Made by a program: the position numbers and the translations under genes
Source: Astrocystis sublimbata
Taxonomy: Eukaryota; Ascomycota; Sordariomycetes; Xylariales; Xylariaceae
NCBI GenBank assembly: GCA_022453515.1
Contig: JAJNNY010000015.1
Span: 434,001 to 498,000 of the forward strand
Direction of reading: 5' to 3'
DNA: 64,000 nt
Part shown: positions 9,567-61,886 of the stretch, piece by piece
Layout of the letters: each line of letters starts with the position of its first letter
Position numbering within the stretch: the first letter of the stretch is position 1
Notes under the pieces: generated by a model
The model's database searches: none
The model's input: the letters and a program-made list of their open reading frames with translations, nothing else
What the model was told of the DNA's origin: nothing

Positions 9567-10085
9567 ATGCTCTTCCCAACTGTGACCCTTCTCCTCACCT
9601 CTCTGGCCTGCATCGCAGAAGGGGCTCCCACCAAAGAGGCAGCCGGTCTCATTGTCCTCGACCAGTTCCTAAGCAACGATGGCGTCTCGCACATCGTCGT
9701 CTACGGCGATGCCAAAAAGCAGCACTCCGAGGTCGCCCGCGACGCCGACCTTTTCAAGCGCTGCGGCAGCAACAACCTCGTCTGCGACAACTCCCACACC
9801 GCCAACCGCGGCGCATGCCAGAGCCTGATCAATGACCTCAGCGGCTCCAGTGCCTCACTGCCAGGCTCCCCGCGCTCCATCTGTGGAACCTACAGCGGCT
9901 CCCAGTGCTGCGTGAGCTGGCACGATCCCGTCTCGAACGCAATGCGGCGGAACCTCGCCTCGGCGGCGCAGAAGGCGCTCAATGGTTGTCGGGGAGACAC
10001 GGGCGTTTCGGCCAAGACGAGTGATACGCAAATTGGGTCAACTTGTACCAGCCAGTGCTTGTCGGACCGGGCTACGGGTTGCTAG
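9567..10085 (+). CDS. Small secreted cysteine-rich protein with Kex2-type propeptide, 172 aa
   Basis: This single-exon gene starts at ATG 9567 in a CAAAATG context. Residues 1-19 form a signal peptide (LFPTVTLLLTSLACIAEGA). Residues 20-65 look like a propeptide that ends in DLFKR, a dibasic Kex2-type site at 64-65. The predicted mature part (66-172, about 107 residues) begins with CGSNN and holds ten cysteines, including one adjacent pair (SQCCVSW), so five disulfides are possible. It is rich in Ser, Ala and Gly. GC content and codon use are those of a well-expressed fungal gene. I do not recognise a named domain. Size, secretion and cysteine content make it an effector-like or antimicrobial-like candidate, but that is inference only. 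Confidence 0.8.
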   Translation: MLFPTVTLLLTSLACIAEGAPTKEAAGLIVLDQFLSNDGVSHIVVYGDAKKQHSEVARDADLFKRCGSNNLVCDNSHTANRGACQSLINDLSGSSASLPGSPRSICGTYSGSQCCVSWHDPVSNAMRRNLASAAQKALNGCRGDTGVSAKTSDTQIGSTCTSQCLSDRATGC

Positions 10086-11434
10086 TCTCGCTATGACATA
10101 TACTATGGGTTCCGAGTGCAAGACATGGTTGTTCCTTGGGGGGAATGCAGTTTCATAATGTGGTGAAAGACTTAACAAAGGCCTTTCTTCCCCTCCTTGC
10201 TTCTCCCCTCTTTGCTTCTCCCCCCTTAAACTCCTAACCTAAGTACCTATTTATGGAATCTATCCAACTTTAGCGTTAGATTGCCCTCCACTTACGTAAC
10301 ACTACGTGATACTCCAGTGGAGAAAATCTCTAGCTATCTAATAGACTATTTTGGGCTAAAGAACGATCCTAGAAGCGTGACTGTCACAGAAACCGTTATG
10401 AAACTTAGACATAGTCGTAGAATTTGGGGGATGTCACAGGCCCTAAACGATTTACCTACCTGCATATGCCTACACCCGTACGTTGTTTCCAGTCTGCCAG
10501 TTACCTGATAAGATACATGTAGCTACTTCGTCAAGTACCTGTTTCCTTCAATTCCACGCCTCACACGCTCCCCAGGTACATGTGTGTATCTCCCTAGGTA
10601 CCGCCCAGCAAGGCCTGCGCGGTGCCGCGCATCACTCGACTTTTATTCGTGTTAAATATAAGCGGCGAGTCTTAGGAGACCCAAGCAACCGTAACACACT
10701 GACAATCAAGGAGTCCATGCCGATAGCACTAGTAGCACTTTGTAGCCATTCATCCACATCCAACTCCGCAAACACTTTACCGTGGTCAAGTTCATCTTGC
10801 CTTTGCTCCTCCCTCCCACCTTGTGCCGTCGCGGACTGAGGCAACTCGTCATGACCATCATCCTTTAACAACGGCCAATTACGAATGTCCCTGATCGCGA
10901 GTTCAGTTCCACTCAGGCCATGGAGATACTGAATCCTGCAATCGGCCACTCTTGTGTTGTTGCCCGTCTGGCCTTGCTGGTTGTCCTTCTCTGTCCGACA
11001 ACAGCGCACGTGGTCTTTATCATTTGCTGAGCCCGTACTTAGTAGTGCAGCAGGGGCCGAGATTGATTCCCATATCGCTCCTATGATGCCCTCGACGACT
11101 TTCTCTACCGAAACTAGATCCACGCTGCACGCAAGAGACCTCTGGACTTTCATAACCCAATTATACCCGGAACTGATTGACAATCATGTTTTATTTATCA
11201 AAACTACCAGCTAGCGGAGTATGTAAACGAGTGTGTTCATTCACCAAGAGAATGGGCCAAAAGCATATGATAAGGAATGGAAGGTATGAGTGTACGGCTC
11301 ATCCTTTTGAAAGGACAGCCCTGGCACTTCAGAATTGAGGTGACAGGGTTCCTGACTTGAACGTGTCCCAGCTAATTATCTCTCATGGAAAGTTGCAGAG
11401 ATCTTTGAGCTGCTGTCCCAGCCCAGGGAACCAT
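10086..11434. other. Intergenic, no supported gene
   Basis: The first part (10180-10240) holds two near copies of a CTCCTTGCTTCTCCCC-like pyrimidine run. An open frame on the minus strand (10632-11183) has no recognisable domain and no good start, and I leave it out. The last part is the 3' flank of the antifungal protein gene. Confidence 0.4.
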
Positions 11435-11855
11435 CTAAGAGCATGTGACCTTCTTGTCGACGCTGTCGAAGGTGCATTCCTTGTTATCGTTGGTGCACTA
11501 GGAAAGAAGAAGAACGTTTAGTGAAACTGAAATTTTCATCAATTCAACATTGAGCCAGACTTACCACCAAGTTTCTGGCGGTAGGACAGCTAACAATGGT
11601 TGTCTTCCCGTTTTGTCCGGTGTATTTGCAAGTGTTCGAGGACTTGGTGCATTTCTAATGAGACCCCATGTGTTTAGCAGTGTATCCTAGGATCTTTTAT
11701 GAAAATAGAGGGTATATTTATTGGCGTACCCCCTTGTAGGTGATCAGGACAGCATCGGCACCTCTAGCATCGAGACCGTCGGAGCCAGCCTCGAGAGGGG
11801 TGGCTACAGCGCCCATTGCGGCGAAGAGGAAAAGAGCTGCGTTGATGATCTGCAT
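11435..11855 (-). CDS. Antifungal protein of the AFP/PAF family, 92-aa precursor, three exons
   Basis: Exons on the minus strand are 11855-11730, 11654-11565 and 11497-11435. Both introns are GT-AG and the total is 92 codons plus stop. Residues 1-19 are a signal peptide (MQIINAALFLFAAMGAVAT), followed by an acidic propeptide (EAGSDGLDARGADA) and a basic mature part of about 55 residues starting near ITYKGKC. Six cysteines at 44, 51, 65, 73, 80 and 91 give C-X6-C-X13-C-X7-C-X6-C-X10-C, which is the spacing of the PAF/AFP antifungal proteins. Motifs KGKCTKSSNTCKY and CTNDNKEC also follow the family, as do the precursor length of about 92 and the two-intron structure. Known members are secreted, compact five-strand beta-barrels held by three disulfides that kill other moulds. 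All residues expected for the fold are present, so the gene looks intact. It stands alone between unrelated genes. Activity and host range cannot be read from sequence. Confidence 0.9.
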
Positions 11856-11966
11856 GGTGAATTGTTTTTGGGGGGCGATAGTGATGGTTTGAATAAGATA
11901 GAAGTGATGAATCGGAAATGTGTGGAAGGTAAGTGCTGCTGGATGAAAGGACCGTGGGAAAGCCTC

Positions 11967-11974
11967 TCTTTATA
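11967..11974 (-). promoter_or_regulatory. Likely TATA box of the antifungal protein gene
   Basis: The sequence CTATAAAG on the minus strand lies about 112 bases upstream of the ATG at 11855. This is a plausible distance for a TATA-driven, strongly induced fungal gene. Confidence 0.45.
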
Positions 11975-13256
11975 GAAAACCCTTCGAGCTCTTCATCCAA
12001 TGGCTATGTTGAGATTCTTCCCTCTATGGTGATACCTGCCACAGCATGGTTCTGACAGCAAGATTGATGGAGGCATCATGGAGCTTCGTATAGCCAGACG
12101 CCTGCGTATCCTCGTTGGCTGAGGTATAACTATGGAGATTATCGGCATGCGAGACATACTATTTAGTGAGTCGTGTACCAAGTAAGCAACTGCATATGGA
12201 CCCAGTAAGAGTTGTACTAGACGATCACTTTGGATGACGATCTAGAATTGAGTGAGATTCACACATGATTCATATGATCTACTCGGAGGTTTAGGTATGT
12301 AGTGTTATTATCATCTTGCCACGAGCCCTGTACTAGCAGTGCTTTGAGGACTTGAACCGTAGACTGAATTGCATATTTGTTCATTACCTAGTTGACAAAA
12401 TATCTAGGTATATAGCCATCTTCATGCTATTATTCATGCACAAGTCAATTCCTGCATAATTCTCTGTTAACTGCGATTCAAAGGAGGCGAGGGTGTAGAT
12501 AGACACAATGGAGTTGCTGGCGAAAGACGCTTAGGTAAGCTTTGCGAATGGAGTCTCGTGATTGTGCTACTGGGAAATTATGGACCGCCGAAGTCGGCGA
12601 CGCCACCATATCAAGCTAATAGCAGTAAGGTATGAATGGTCATGGTCTCGACTTTAAAGATGCAGCAGTAAGACCGAGTTGACAATGGCTTAATAACACG
12701 TCCTTTGCACCTTGGCTGTTATTAATCTGCTCTCGTCGTCGGCTCGGGGTTGCGGAGTTTTACACTTTTACTTACCATGAGACGGCTATAACGGCAGTTA
12801 AATCTTTGAGTCTCATCGTATATTTGGACGATCAACTAGGTCATAGTCATTGTTGTCTAACGTCTCATTTCGTCCTATGGAACTTTATGTCAATTTTGTC
12901 CAAGCTTAGAATGTCATCCACGGTTGTCTAGTCCATTGCATCCAGCAACTTAATACTCAACGCTAGCCAGATGTCGATCCCTACATTTTGGCTCTTCCTG
13001 TCAATGTTTTCTTGTCAAGCTCCTTAATACATGTTGATCTCGAGTCTGAAAGATTGTTAAAGTTGAGAATGTCGGTTTGCATGATCTATGTTCGATCGTT
13101 GTTCAATGAACATGATATGCTGATCGTGCCTCCGGCACATTCGGCTTCCCTATTTGATGTTACTCAGCGCGTGCCTTGCATGCAGATATGGCGGTGTAAT
13201 GACTGCTTCTTCCCAAGTGATCATCTAATTTATTGGGCGTCCAGGCTTCCAATTGG
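11975..13256. other. Intergenic, no supported gene
   Basis: This stretch holds the upstream region of the antifungal protein gene and about 1 kb of moderately AT-rich sequence. A 90-codon plus-strand frame at 12988-13260 has no recognisable features. Confidence 0.35.
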
Positions 13257-13704
13257 CTAGGGCGAGTGGACCTGTCTGACATTCTCTCGAGTCTCTAGAG
13301 CTGCGAGAAGATCGCCACGGGCAATCCGATTAGACATCATCTCACTTGCATCGTCTATGCGAATTCTATGACGCCTCAACCGTGTAGCTGAGGCGGGGAA
13401 AATCGGTATCACTTTGAGCACATTGCAGTTGGTTGCGAAATCTTCCCCTTGGTTTTCATCATGTAATGGATTGTTCCCGTAATTACAGGCTGCAGCATCA
13501 AAGTTCGCAACAATTCATTAATTTGAACGATGCATAGCTTAGCTTCTCCTTCTTGAAAGTTGCGACCAACTCAAACACCATTGGTCTGCTTGCGTTCATT
13601 GAAAAACCCACGAGTTCCCATTCTCTCACGTCATAGTACCGTTCAGAGTCAGCCGAGACATTTCAATCAATACCGTCTTCCAGTTCCATCATAGTGTCAA
13701 AGTC
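13257..13704 (-). pseudogene. Decayed coding sequence of unknown family
   Basis: Protein-like frames follow one another on the minus strand. A frame containing NDFDTMMELEDGID reaches a TGA at about 13665 and continues in the same frame as NVSADSERYYDVREWELVGF and FELVATFKKEKLSYASFKLM to a TGA at about 13502. After a shift of one base the reading continues from 13514 with YGNNPLHDENQGEDFATNC, VLKVIPIFPASATRL and SEMMSNRIARGDLLAALETR, to a TAG at 13259-13257. The amino acid composition is that of a folded protein, yet one nonsense codon and one frameshift interrupt it. I do not recognise the family. It overlaps the 3' end of the small-protein model upstream, so one of the two descriptions of that overlap must be wrong or the two are parts of one broken gene. 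Confidence 0.4.
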
Positions 13705-15177: not shown

Positions 15178-15633
15178 TTACTTCCCATCATTTTCTTTGT
15201 TGTTGTCGAGGGCAGCCTTGAGTTGGGTAGCTGCTGCGCCGACAGCACCAATGCCTAGGGCTGCTCCCGCTACCAATCTGGCGTCAGATCTACCGGCATC
15301 AGGGCTTTGAAGGGCTCCTAAGAAATGGTAGAGATGATTAGCGAAAGGCATATATGTGGATCGGGATAATGTTTCACGAGGATATGCAGTAGGTCTTTCG
15401 TCTCAAGACTCTACTACAACTGCAAGATTTCATCAAGTCAATCAAGAATACATACCAGAAGCTGCGCCGATTGCCACAACACTCGGTGCAACGGTACAAG
15501 CTGCTCCGACGACGATTGCAGTGGTCTTCTCGGGATTGGCTTCCACCCATTCTTTGCCTTTCGCAGCAGTCTCAGCTATGTGATGCAGACCTTCTGAAGC
15601 AACGTGCTTGGCAACCTGCTGAACAAAATCCAT
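15178..15633 (-). CDS. IFI6/IFI27-like small hydrophobic protein, 105 aa
   Basis: Exons are 15633-15456 and 15317-15178, joined by a GTATGT...TTCTTAG intron. The protein begins MDFVQQVAKHVASEGLHHIA with an amphipathic helix, then GKEWVEANPEKTTAIVVGA, a Gly/Ala-rich hydrophobic stretch (TVAPSVVAIGAASG), a short polar linker and a second one (ARLVAGAALGIGAVGAAATQ). It ends in a charged tail (DNNKENDGK). Two Gly/Ala-rich hydrophobic segments after an N-P-E-K-T motif fit the ISG12/IFI6-27 family, which has many fungal members of unknown role; animal members are mitochondrial or ER membrane proteins. An in-frame ATG at 15648 would add five residues. The match rests on the motif pattern only. Confidence 0.65.
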
Positions 15634-17636
15634 GTTGAAGGGAAACATTGTAAGCTGGTGATTGGTGAATGTTGTGTGTGACAGATATACAGAACAATGT
15701 TGGGCAAACTGTGAGTGGAGGCGGAGATGAGGCGAGAATGGTGGTGTGTATGTGTGTGGTTAGAAGAGGTGAAGAAGGTGGGTGGTACTGTGTAGTGAGC
15801 TAGAAGTTAACCAACCTGACTGGCAAGTGAATGGCACTGGCAGTTGCCTAGACAGGGCTCTCAGTTTCCGTTTGCTAATTTCCGTTTGTTTGCTTGTACT
15901 ATGGTTTCGGGAAGGTTCTGTCCTCTTGGGCTGCGTCACTAGGGGCGACTGTTGTATGAAGCTGGGCAAGTATCCTTGCTACTTCAGTTACCCTAGTAAG
16001 AACGACGAGGCAAAGTGATAAACTTCGCTGGCAAATTTTCTGATTATAGCAACAGCCCGAGGTAATTACATGTAATAGTGTCAAGTAGCTAATTCTGGCC
16101 CATCATATCAAACGTAAGACGACTCCTTCAAATGTTGATTGGGTTGTTCTTAATAGCTAGGTGCGTCCGAAATACACTCCTCAAACATAAGTCAATACGG
16201 TGACTTCTATTTTATAGTTTCGCACTCTTGTCCTCGCTACTTGAAGATGCTGTTTGTCTAGGCAAATTTACTTTAGACAAGCACCACATCATAACTATCC
16301 TTCTTACATGCTATTGGAATCTCTCCTTATACCACTGAATAAATAGGTGCTTAATGTCTATTGATTAGTAAGTACTTTACTATAGCTGCAATTGTTCATA
16401 CGAAAACAAATGTTTCGCTTGATTTGCATAACCCTAAAGCAGCTTTTAACATCGTCCCCAAATCGGGTTGCATTGTTGCATTGTCGCCAGATATACCTTG
16501 TGCACTTTGCAATGCTCAGTAGTAACTAATGAGTTATGCCTTAGTTCATGTGCTCCGGAAAGGCTGAAAGATATGTTGAATTCCATACGGCTTTAAGTCT
16601 TGACCACAAGACTCAAAGAGCGATGCAACAATAACCACCTGATTCTCAACGCTCGTCATCAAATATTCAATCTTCCAATTCAGTTTATCCCTACCAAAGG
16701 CAAAATTAAAAGGTCTTCTTCGAAGTTACCTGTTATGAAATGTCAGTGCAACACACAGCTGGCCTTTTGCTTGTACCTTGTATGAATGGTCACGGGAGTT
16801 ACAGAGCAGTATTTGACATGACATTTGACGCTCAGACTCCCCTGCCCGCCCCAGAGCGAGATTAGACATGGGCCCTGGAGGTTGGAGTGCAAGTGGAGTG
16901 AAAACACAAAACTCCACCGACCCGACCAATGAGCCTCACAAACTTAGCGAACACGATCCGCCCTAAAACAGAGCACTAAGTCTTCTACGCTAGGGCTTGC
17001 GTCGCGCGCTTCGGTCAGCGTACACGATTCCGAGGTATCTTCCGACCCGCCATCTTGTTCCTTGTGTTTCGTTTGGTGTACTTGGGAGCGTCTTTAACAA
17101 GCCGCCAAGTGCCAATCGCCTCAACAACGCAGTGATTAATTCTAGCTTGGAGCGCTTTGCATCACACTGGAAGCATTGTGACTCAAATCTTCATCATTTT
17201 TTGCCTTTCTAGAGCTAGATTAAAGTCAAAGTCTTTAATACCGCAACACATTACAGCTAGCATGACATGAAAGCAACAACATCTGCAAGTCTGAACAACC
17301 CTGGGCAACGACCCTCGATCTCATCTAGTCGATGGAGCCTTGGCGGAATCCGTAACTCTTGAACCTGACTTCACACCAGCTATCCTTGTCAGCTAGGACA
17401 TAGGCTCCTACACTAGGTATTGGTATTTGTCAATTCGTGATGACTGCTGCGTAGGTATGCAGGTTGTTCAGCTTCCTGCTCTTATACGAGTCCTCTACAT
17501 ATAAACCCGCCGCCAGCCAACATGTCTCTGAACTCACTTCACTCTCCATCATTAACCCGTCCTCCGCCATTTAAATCGATAACATACCCGTAATCATAAT
17601 TCTACCTTTACGTTCTTCCTTACGCCAACAAACAAC
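15634..17636. other. Intergenic, about 2 kb without a supported gene
   Basis: The two ends should contain promoters of the divergently arranged IFI6-like gene (minus) and the GPI-type protein gene (plus). A TATAAA at 17500-17505 lies about 130 bases before the ATG at 17637. The AT-rich middle has only short frames. Confidence 0.4.
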
Positions 17637-18272
17637 ATGTACACCACCAAGGCTCTCGTCGCTCTGACCGTCCTGGCGGACGCGTCCCTTGCCCAGACCT
17701 ACATCCGACCTTCGTTGTGCAGCAGCCTCATCAACGACCTCAACGTCGCTGCCCCTACACTCCCCGCCACACTCTCATCCGCTTATGGCTACTACTACTC
17801 GATGGAACCCAACGCCGACGTCCTTCTAGCCGACCCCAAATCCTACGTCGCAGAAGTGTGCAGCGTCCTCCCCAAGCTACCAGAAGATGTCCTCCCCGCC
17901 TTTGCGAGCTGGGGCGTAGCCCTGCTCGACTTCGCCAGCAACACCATCGAGGCCTACGACGCCATCATCACGAGCTGCATCACCACGGGCACGGCCGCTG
18001 CTTCCGTCACCAGCTACCTGCACTCCATCGTCAGCTCGCCCGAGGCGCTCTGCCAGCCCACAAGCAGCCCCAGCAGAGGAAACGGCACGGCCTCTATCAC
18101 ACCTTACCCTACATCTACGCCTGCGCCTGCGCCAACGGGTAGCAACAGCACCGTCCCCGGCACTGGAGTCCCCACCACCTCGGTTCCCGTTGCCGCTGCT
18201 GCTAGGCCTACTGGTCTCCTCGCTGGCGCAGCCGCCATCGGTGGTCTCCTTGGCGCCGTGGCGCTACTGTAA
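17637..18272 (+). CDS. Secreted GPI-anchor-type protein, 211 aa
   Basis: This is a single-exon gene. Residues 1-19 are a signal peptide (MYTTKALVALTVLADASLA). The body has four cysteines (LCSSLINDL, EVCSVLPKL, TSCITT, ALCQPTS), which could form two disulfides. A Ser/Thr/Pro-rich linker follows (about residues 142-185; TSSPSRGNGTASITPYPTST), suited to heavy O-glycosylation. The C terminus is a hydrophobic tail (LLAGAAAIGGLLGAVALL) after a small-residue stretch, as in GPI-anchor signals. It is therefore probably a cell-wall or plasma-membrane-linked surface protein. The ATG sits in a CAACATG context behind a TATA box and pyrimidine-rich leader. No catalytic domain is recognisable. Confidence 0.8.
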   Translation: MYTTKALVALTVLADASLAQTYIRPSLCSSLINDLNVAAPTLPATLSSAYGYYYSMEPNADVLLADPKSYVAEVCSVLPKLPEDVLPAFASWGVALLDFASNTIEAYDAIITSCITTGTAAASVTSYLHSIVSSPEALCQPTSSPSRGNGTASITPYPTSTPAPAPTGSNSTVPGTGVPTTSVPVAAAARPTGLLAGAAAIGGLLGAVALL

Positions 18273-58927: not shown

Positions 58928-60134
58928 AACAAAAGCAAAGGCAGGGGGCGAACAGCTGCATATCTCTGTGCGGAAGTGTTGCATCCGGGCCGCAAACAAC
59001 CAACCTGGTGAGAGGATTGGATTTCTCCGGATGGCGAACTTGGAGGAAAGTCTATATACGCGATACTCACGCAGCGGGAAAGAATGCTGTCGAGCGCTAT
59101 CATACCATAGAAACGCAAGATGACGGGGATTCCTGTACGTAGCATCAACTACGGATACATAAGTACCTTACAAATGCTTCGAATCCCTTTTTTGTTGATC
59201 ATATGCAGGTATCTAATCCAGATCTGGCATTCTTCTGGGAAGGGTCCAGCAAAGTGGATAATTATTTCATAAGCCGAATGATCGCCCACCCACCCCTCGC
59301 ACCCCCTCAGGGAATTGATCGGTAGAGATGGTAGATCGCCTGCCGCTTACCATGGTAATGGGACGGGTGTGATCCCGCCACATCTTCATAGCATCCTTGC
59401 CACCCTCGCTATCGATTGTCATAGGTAAGTAAGTTGCCGGCAATTCCAGCTTGGATTAGCCTGAAAGCAGCTTAGTTCATAAGCTCCAGGTGCGTGCGTC
59501 GCGAAGGGACTAGAAGTGCTAGAGTCTCAGGATGACCCCTGATGGCATTTCTGTACATATCGAAATCCCGTGCTAGCATAATCTGTTCTCCATCGCGGGC
59601 CATTAAAAGTGCACCTAGTGCACAGTAGAACGATCCAGTAAGCGAAAGGGAAGAACGGCTATCGCTCGACTAGGCCGCGCAAAGGCAGCAGCAGTAAATT
59701 AGGTGGCAATAGTCTGCGGTTTACCCCAGCATGGGACCAACGAGATCTGGTATAGCTAGCTGTTTGTTCGTTTTCAGGTGGCAGAGTCTGTACGTCTTTG
59801 ATGCAGACAGGTTGGAGCTTGCTGTCTAATTTTATCTGCCACTCTATCCCTTTTGGACACTAAGAGCGATGGCTGCCGTGAATACTAGACTATGGGTGTT
59901 GCCGCCGTCGATCCTTGGGTTCTTAGTGAATAAGACTACCTTATCTAGAGCTCGACATTCACCATGCGCAGATTCTGACTCTGGCCAAGGAAGAAGTTTG
60001 GGTTTTGCAATGCTGTGAAAAACTCTCCCTCTCGCGCCCGTTTTCTATCTCAGGATCAGATCTAGCAGAGCACTTGTCAGAGGGGAGCTATCTCTGGTCT
60101 TTTCGATCTCGCCGTTTTCACTATTGCTGCTAAG
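58928..60134. other. Intergenic
   Basis: This stretch contains the 3' flank of the FSH1-like gene and the promoter of the P450 gene. I see no supported gene. Confidence 0.4.
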
Positions 60135-61886
60135 ATGGATTCGTGGACGCATAACTCGCTGTTGCTCAACAGCAACATTGGCTTCACGGCCATTGTTGTT
60201 GTATCGACTTGCATCCTATGGTATACTGTCTCGGCTATTCGATCATGGCACCGGCTTCGTCAGTTCCCGGGGCCTTTCTACGCCTCTTTCAGTTATCTGT
60301 GGGGATACTTCACGATGTCTACGGGCCGCATGCACCTTCGCCTAGCCGAGGAGCAGGAGAAGTACGGCAAGATAATGCGCATCGGCCCCAACGAGCTCCT
60401 CGTCTACGACCCGCAGACGCTGTGGCATATCAACAACGTGCGTTCGAGCTACGGGCGTGGTGACTGGTATGGCAGCATTCAGTTCGACCCGTACGGCCAC
60501 AGTGTGCTCTCCGAGCCCGACACCGCGAAACACGACAAGCGCAAAGCAAAGCTGGCGGGAGGGTATGCTGGAAAAGGCGCGGTAGACCTCGAGGCCAAGG
60601 TCGATTCGCAAGTGGCTGTCCTCGTCAACCTTCTCAAGACCAAGTATCTGATGAAGGGCACGTCTCACGTCCTGGACTTCAGCCGCCTCATTCGATTCTT
60701 CCAGGTCGACATTGTCACCCTCGCCGGTTCGGGTAAACCGTGGGGTGACCTGGAGACTGAGACGGACCAGTTTGATTTCATCGCCATATCGGATTCGTTC
60801 GTCCCGTTCTTGCATTCTTTTATGATGATCCCTGCCTTGCGAGATCTGTTTGCGTCGAAGTTTTTCCTCAAGCTGGCTGGCCCCAAGCACACGGATGAGA
60901 AGGGCATGGGCAGGTTCTTGGGGTGAGTGTTGTCTGTTGCCGATTCGGATCACAGCTAACAGGAAGATCAGGATTGTTAAGAGCGCTGTGGCCAAGCGCT
61001 TCGATGAATCGAGCCAAGACAAAGACACCCAAGGTGATATGTTGGTACGTAGCTTTGACTTTTACTCCTCATTATAACACACCCAGGTTGCTAACGTAAC
61101 AATAGGATGAGTGGATCAAGAACGGTATGACACGTCGAGAGTGCGAACTTGAACTGGCCATCCAAGTACCTGCCGGGTCCGAGACATCGACCACTGCGAT
61201 CCGAGGCATCATGCTTCACCTGCTGTCCTCCCCCAACGCCTACCGGAAGCTCCAAGAGGAGATCAAAACTGGTATTGAGGAGGGACGTATCTCAAGTCCG
61301 ATCACAAACGAAGAGGCCAAGCGTCTTCCTTATCTTCAGGTTCGTCTCTTATCGCCGAAACACAGAACATATGCCCAGATCCTAACATAGTCAGGCTGTC
61401 ATCAACGAAGGGCTGCGCATGATCCCACCGGCCATCACGGGCTTCCCGAAGAAGGTTCCGGCAGGTGGCGATACGATCTGTGGCAGATTCGTGCCCGAAG
61501 GCACAGACATATTCGTCAATCTTTGGACCATGTTGCGTAACAAAGAGGTATTCGGCAACGACACCGAAGTCTTCAGACCTGAGCGATTCCTCGATTGCAG
61601 CGCAGAGAAGAAGGCTGAGTTGTTGAGAAACATTGACCTCGCTTTCGGCCATGGACGATGGCAGTGTCCCGGCAAGACGCTGGCTTGGCTAGAGCTGAAT
61701 AAACTCTTCGTTGAGGTAAGTTTGAGAAGCTGGCCTTTCTTTGAGCCGACCGTTGCTGATAACCGAGGGCAGATTCTCCGAATATGCGATCTGCAGATCG
61801 TGAATCCCCAGACACCTTGGCGGTGTCGGGGTTATTCGAGCTTTTTGATCGACGACTTCTGGGTTCGCCTGATTGAGAAGGCTTAA
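60135..61886 (+). CDS. Cytochrome P450 monooxygenase, 509 aa, five exons
   Basis: Exons are 60135-60922, 60972-61044, 61106-61339, 61395-61715 and 61773-61886; all introns are GT-AG and the sum is 510 codons. The N terminus has a membrane anchor (IGFTAIVVVSTCILWYTVSA) followed by FPGPFYASFSYLWGYF. All P450 landmarks are present: I-helix AGSETSTTA (near 310-318), ExxR as EGLR (Glu370-Arg373), PERF-type FRPERFLD and the heme loop FGHGRWQCPGK with ligand Cys456. The sequence is most like the pisatin-demethylase/benzoate-hydroxylase-like group of fungal P450s, which act on aromatic or polyketide substrates at the ER. The last intron (57 nt) is a multiple of three and free of stops. No PKS, NRPS or terpene gene is within the window, so a pathway cannot be named. 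Confidence 0.92.

Follow-up and report, generated by a model that had tools for sequence, protein, structure and literature searches.

A three-exon antifungal protein gene with an intact reading frame occupies 11855-11435 on the minus strand of the 64,000-nucleotide stretch of Astrocystis sublimbata DNA analysed here (the window; contig JAJNNY010000015.1, positions 434,001 to 498,000). Its spliced coding sequence of 279 nt specifies a 92-residue prepro-protein that sequence and structure prediction together assign to the PAF/AFP family of antifungal proteins (AFPs), with the five-strand fold of that family. Taken in full, with the proposed processing and action included, the locus is very probably best explained as an intact PAF-type AFP gene of this fungus; the protein it encodes lacks, however, the basic residues that PAF carries in loop 3, and with this site missing, the phenotype known from a PAF mutant becomes something to ask of a protein that occurs in nature. 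An earlier sequence-only reading had placed the gene at the same coordinates, which are correct, without stating that it lies on the minus strand.

That the protein belongs to the PAF/AFP family is as good as certain, and on this point, also anticipated by the sequence-only reading, all the tests agree: the Pfam profile, the sequence match to PDB entries, the fold prediction, the spacing of the cysteines, the propeptide site and the places of the introns. The profile search that reading had called for matched PF11402 (Antifungal_prot) to the chosen splice model at 72.4 bits against a cut-off of 25, over profile positions 1-50 of 50 (E = 3.5e-20). The six cysteines are spaced 6-13-7-6-10, as had been counted and as in PAF and the relative P0004; the family spacing is printed as CX(6)CX(11-12)CX(4-9)CX6CX10-13C (PMC6027536), so that X13 falls one beyond the printed range in the window's protein and in PAF alike. 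The gamma-core, GXC-X3-9-C near the N-terminus, is present as GKCTKSSNTC. A placing of the six cysteines outside the AFP fold had been named as a possible refutation; the predicted structure instead has five strands, as in the small beta-barrel of the family, and solved PAF/AFP-family structures are matched both by sequence and by predicted fold, AFP-family entries filling the first 15 places among the 50 rows listed by a Foldseek search whose matches were re-ranked, with none added, by a VIA-align second look.

The three exons of 63-126 nt, two introns and 92 residues previously proposed are confirmed (Table 1). Enumeration of two-intron models, with GT or GC allowed as donors, yielded 5,468 candidates, and only 24 of them keep the outer cysteine pattern C-X6-C...C-X6-C-X10-C; six of the 24 have the full 6-13-7-6-10 spacing, two of the six have GT at both donors, and of these two the chosen model alone also retains the Y-x-G-x-C start. 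The gamma-core crosses the joint between exons 1 and 2. Judged from the sequences of relatives, both intron positions are independently backed, and the claim that the introns sit at family-like places is thereby borne out by the relatives' own break points. At intron 1, all 12 exon-1-only relatives that were inspected (other short fragments were left out) match the family through the Gly of Y-x-G and then diverge with Val, as would be expected of read-through into a GTN-starting intron at the same phase 0 place; at intron 2, P0042 (Curvularia) diverges with Val just ahead of Cys4, and the model of P0047 (Fusarium lateritium) fuses Y-W-G directly to Cys4, as if exon 2 were skipped. Deposited family models without the piece around intron 2 or without all of exon 2 (P0028, from Aspergillus niger CBS 513.88, and P0047) are probably splice mis-annotations.

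The feature that distinguishes this member lies at the positions on which PAF killing has been made to depend. Lys9 together with Lys34, Lys35 and Lys38 forms a cationic domain described as essential for full function of PAF (PMC5224997), and the K35A/K38A mutant, despite PAF-like folding, leaves A. niger growth at 78%, against 4.6% with PAF, at 20 µg/ml, and at 400 µg/ml shifts resting calcium by +3.8%, where PAF shifts it by +413% (PMC4424949). The window's protein reads Lys9, Leu34, Val35 and Asn38, and is thus basic at only the first of these four. The comparison covers 38 of 71 proteins, namely those in which X6 is the first interval and the cysteines number exactly six; the remaining 33, which are truncated, comprise exon 1 only or are spaced differently, were left aside. 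These 38 rows are not independent: compared from the first cysteine onward, they amount to 37 distinct sequences, many of them from close species. The residue preceding Cys4, which corresponds to PAF Lys35, is K/R in 37 of the 38 and Val in the window's protein alone, which is likewise the only row without a basic residue at 34, 35 and 38 together; the rows of Xylaria, Ustulina and Apiospora carry KR, KK and HR before Cys4, and no basic residue appears there in any of the 24 alternative splice models. Position 34 is basic in 21/38 rows and position 38 in 20/38, and nine other rows lack both yet have K/R at 35. Positions 34 and 38 therefore vary across the family, and only position 35 is exceptional.

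Three observations weigh against a plain PAF-type reading: the absence of any basic residue at PAF positions 34, 35 and 38, where PAF K35A/K38A loses most of its activity; Gln at position 19, where Asp is required in PAF (PMC5224997); and a second tree, considered below, in which the protein falls weakly beside class B (67/73). The change at position 19 predicts nothing by itself, since Efe-AfpA of Epichloe festucae, reported to be active (PMC5514056), also has Gln19. As the protein shares Lys9 and the gamma-core with PAF but none of lysines 34, 35 and 38, we expect its activity to depart from that of PAF, most likely by being weaker or by lacking the sustained calcium rise. The sequence-only reading had suggested that the protein could define a distinct antifungal spectrum; the missing basic residues are also compatible with a weaker activity. 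On balance we lean towards a PAF-like antifungal activity of the predicted protein.

The strongest competing explanation is a family member that has kept its fold, secretion and processing and, with the cationic site gone, has lost or changed its killing, either serving another role (e.g., developmental signalling) or being on the way to loss. The unique valine, the uniquely empty set of three positions, the basic pairs of the Xylaria, Ustulina and Apiospora rows, the failure of every splice model to restore the residue and the folded but far less active PAF mutant all speak for this possibility, which we consider doubtful: positions 34 and 38 are poorly conserved, the net charge of +5 is retained along with Lys9 and the gamma-core, position 32, an Asp in PAF, is occupied by Arg, and decay is argued against by the intact frame, splice sites and six cysteines. 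A related proposal, which we put forward only tentatively, is that of a natural PAF-type protein without the loop-3 cationic contact site, a natural counterpart of PAF K35A/K38A, that would act by a route independent of both this site and calcium overload or in a role other than killing. Whichever holds, the protein amounts to a natural test, because PAF killing is tied to lysines 35 and 38 (34 is also named) and the predicted fold is still that of the family; active or inactive, it would tell whether the site is needed family-wide or in PAF only. The family members studied in the papers considered come from Eurotiales and Hypocreales, whereas this gene is a member from Xylariaceae.

Under the preferred reading of an intact PAF-type gene, the precursor would be matured in two steps. 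The layout (LDAR, the six residues GADAVL, then ITYKGKC) resembles that of Efe-AfpA, for which mass spectrometry found ITYEGTCSR to be abundant and AETGILITYEGTCSR, six residues longer and behind an LDAR-like site, to be minor, the longer form being less active (PMC5514056). After removal of the signal, the propeptide, which would keep the protein quiet, may be cut after LDAR, and GADAVL then trimmed to leave a basic 55-residue protein beginning ITYKGKC; a longer form, GADAVLITYKGK, would parallel the minor form of Efe-AfpA. The start of KGKCTKS type given by the sequence-only reading survives as the GKCTKS of the gamma-core and is displaced as the predicted mature start, and its acidic propeptide is confirmed by a net charge of -3 over residues 19-37. 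Among the 41 rows whose Y-x-G-x-C start is readable, the propeptide site is found by pattern in 27, the gap from Arg to Tyr being eight residues in 24 of the 27, and the 14 rows without a match are mostly class B. The predicted mature form, with 55 residues, a mass of 5,980.7 Da once three disulfides are formed and an isoelectric point (pI) of 9.02, is cationic, as expected of the family. Disulfides would join cysteines 1-4, 2-5 and 3-6, the abcabc pattern given for NFAP, PAF and PAFB (PMC11423270), and the secreted protein would act at the membrane and cell wall of hyphae, whether of competing or of sister fungi.

Among the closest known systems, PAF of Penicillium chrysogenum (PDB 2kcn) has the same spacing, GKCTKS start, Lys9, predicted fold, 55 residues and single residue after the last cysteine; it differs in its loop-3 lysines and Asp19, and identity over the aligned part is 50%. 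Efe-AfpA (P0032) is likewise a Sordariomycete protein and shares the two-step processing layout, the ITY start, Gln19 and a pI of ~9, but is 49% identical and retains KK before Cys4 and Lys38. Xylaria curta P0014 (54% identity) has the same spacing and Ustulina deusta P0037 (53%) an X5 interval before Cys4, and both, unlike the window's protein, retain basic residues before Cys4; these two species probably share the family of A. sublimbata. NFAP and the class B AFPs (AnAFP, AfpB, PAFB) share the six cysteines, PF11402 and the fold, but separate Cys2 from Cys3 by X12 and end in longer tails (CDFRH, CQTPV).

The gene is probably of class A, an assignment based on shape (X13, one residue past the last cysteine) and on one tree that places it with PAF-type rows at 85/81. 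In that tree the protein weakly adjoins the long Dothidotthia row P0026 (81/60); its place shifted to the one beside class B when P0026 was dropped as a long branch. In both trees it stays outside the class B clade itself (100/100 and 100/99), and the 95 columns hold too little signal for class or transfer history.

Horizontal transfer into the lineage, instead of descent within Xylariales, appears unlikely. In its favour are the highest identity in the tree set, 57% across 92 columns with a row from Penicillium, the rejection of ten Sordariomycete rows as one clade in an approximately unbiased (AU) test (p-AU 0.035), and earlier proposals of transfer for the PAF gene and for that of Epichloe inebrians (PMC5514056; PMC9605492). 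The three Xylariaceae rows held together are, conversely, not rejected (p-AU 0.46), the signal is that of 95 columns, and positions 11300-13500 (2.2 kb), considered for flanking repeats as in Epichloe, show no second match in the genome, in a search that skipped very common words. Both tested groups were picked after the first tree, and neither settles the choice between descent and transfer; the rejection of the Sordariomycete clade agrees with earlier discussion of loss and transfer in the family (PMC5514056; PMC9605492). A dispersed repeat of ~105 bp does lie at 10342-10445, ~1 kb beyond the gene's stop codon, with at least nine other copies of 74-80% identity on nine other contigs; considered as an Epichloe-like flanking repeat, it was not taken to be relevant. 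It is extremely improbable that the three exons fit together by chance or belong to a decayed, unexpressed copy, for all the patchy presence and gene loss that the family reportedly shows in Epichloe (PMC5514056), given the Pfam E-value, the identical deposited model, the intron positions shared by relatives, the intact frame and the canonical splice ends.

The gene had also been described as hidden and new, a claim that does not stand: NCBI nr already contains an identical protein under the same family name, 'antifungal protein [Astrocystis sublimbata]' (100% identity across 92 residues; one candidate and one match among 5.8 billion proteins searched), and this is an annotated, ordinary, intact member of a known family. 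Two alignment searches gave 28 proteins from 31 candidates and 59 from 248 as relatives, including, besides those of Xylaria, Ustulina and Epichloe, proteins of Pyrenochaeta (54% identity), Apiospora (49%) and Fusarium as well as numerous rows from Penicillium and Aspergillus. The family was already known beyond Eurotiales, in Sordariomycetes and Dothideomyceta (PMC5106034). Among the titles and abstract beginnings listed from the open-licence literature, none belonged to a study of an AFP from Xylariales, Xylariaceae or A. sublimbata itself, nor to one of the Xylaria curta or Ustulina deusta homologues, and the plasmid collection yielded no match. Within the genome, no PF11402 hit above the cut-off was found besides this gene's two exon hits, in a search that a divergent short-exon copy could escape because it reads exons singly and scores the best candidates only; C157, tried as a second copy, was rejected, with 17.1 bits (below the cut-off), three stops and no family features on reading.

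Table 1. Positions of the antifungal protein gene and its parts in the window
Feature	Position	Strand	Remarks
TATAAA box-like hexamer	11969..11974	-	119 nt 5' of the start codon; consensus match only, no control
Exon 1	11730..11855	-	126 nt; codes for the signal peptide, the propeptide and the initial five residues of the predicted mature form
Signal peptide	11802..11855	-	residues 1-18, presumed cut after AVA; position judged by eye
Propeptide	11745..11801	-	residues 19-37; LDAR (11774-11763), then GADAVL; two-step trimming proposed from comparison with Efe-AfpA
Intron 1	11655..11729	-	75 nt, GT...AG, phase 0
Exon 2	11565..11654	-	90 nt; cysteines 1-3, Leu-Val at its end
Leu71-Val72 codons	11565..11570	-	correspond to PAF Lys34-Lys35
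Intron 2	11498..11564	-	67 nt, GT...AG, phase 0, immediately 5' of the Cys4 codon
Exon 3	11435..11497	-	63 nt including the TAG stop; cysteines 4-6

A scan of the 1 kb promoter returned one match each for the TATAAA, CCAAT, BrlA and CreA patterns and none for the AbaA, StuA and CT-run patterns; as the scan had no control, these motifs are given no weight. Among the neighbouring features of the window, a gene at 9567-10085 (+), tail-to-tail with the antifungal gene and ~1.35 kb from it, encodes a small, cysteine-rich protein that begins with a signal-like stretch and matches PF20493 (WD-like_fungi; 74.1 bits, cut-off 22.5). Two adjoining open reading frames (ORFs) at 15181-15759 (-), one beginning MFPFNMDFVQQ and both partly rich in Ala, Gly and Val, have no Pfam match and may, as exons, encode a single small hydrophobic protein. 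The ORF at 17583-18272 (+), also without a Pfam match, combines a signal-like start, a Ser/Thr/Pro-rich stretch and a hydrophobic end, and by eye resembles a glycosylphosphatidylinositol-anchored cell-wall protein. Further along, an ORF at 60066-60926 without a Pfam match lies upstream of another at 61386-61886 (+), in which FGHGRWQCPGKTLA resembles, by eye, the haem-binding motif of a cytochrome P450.
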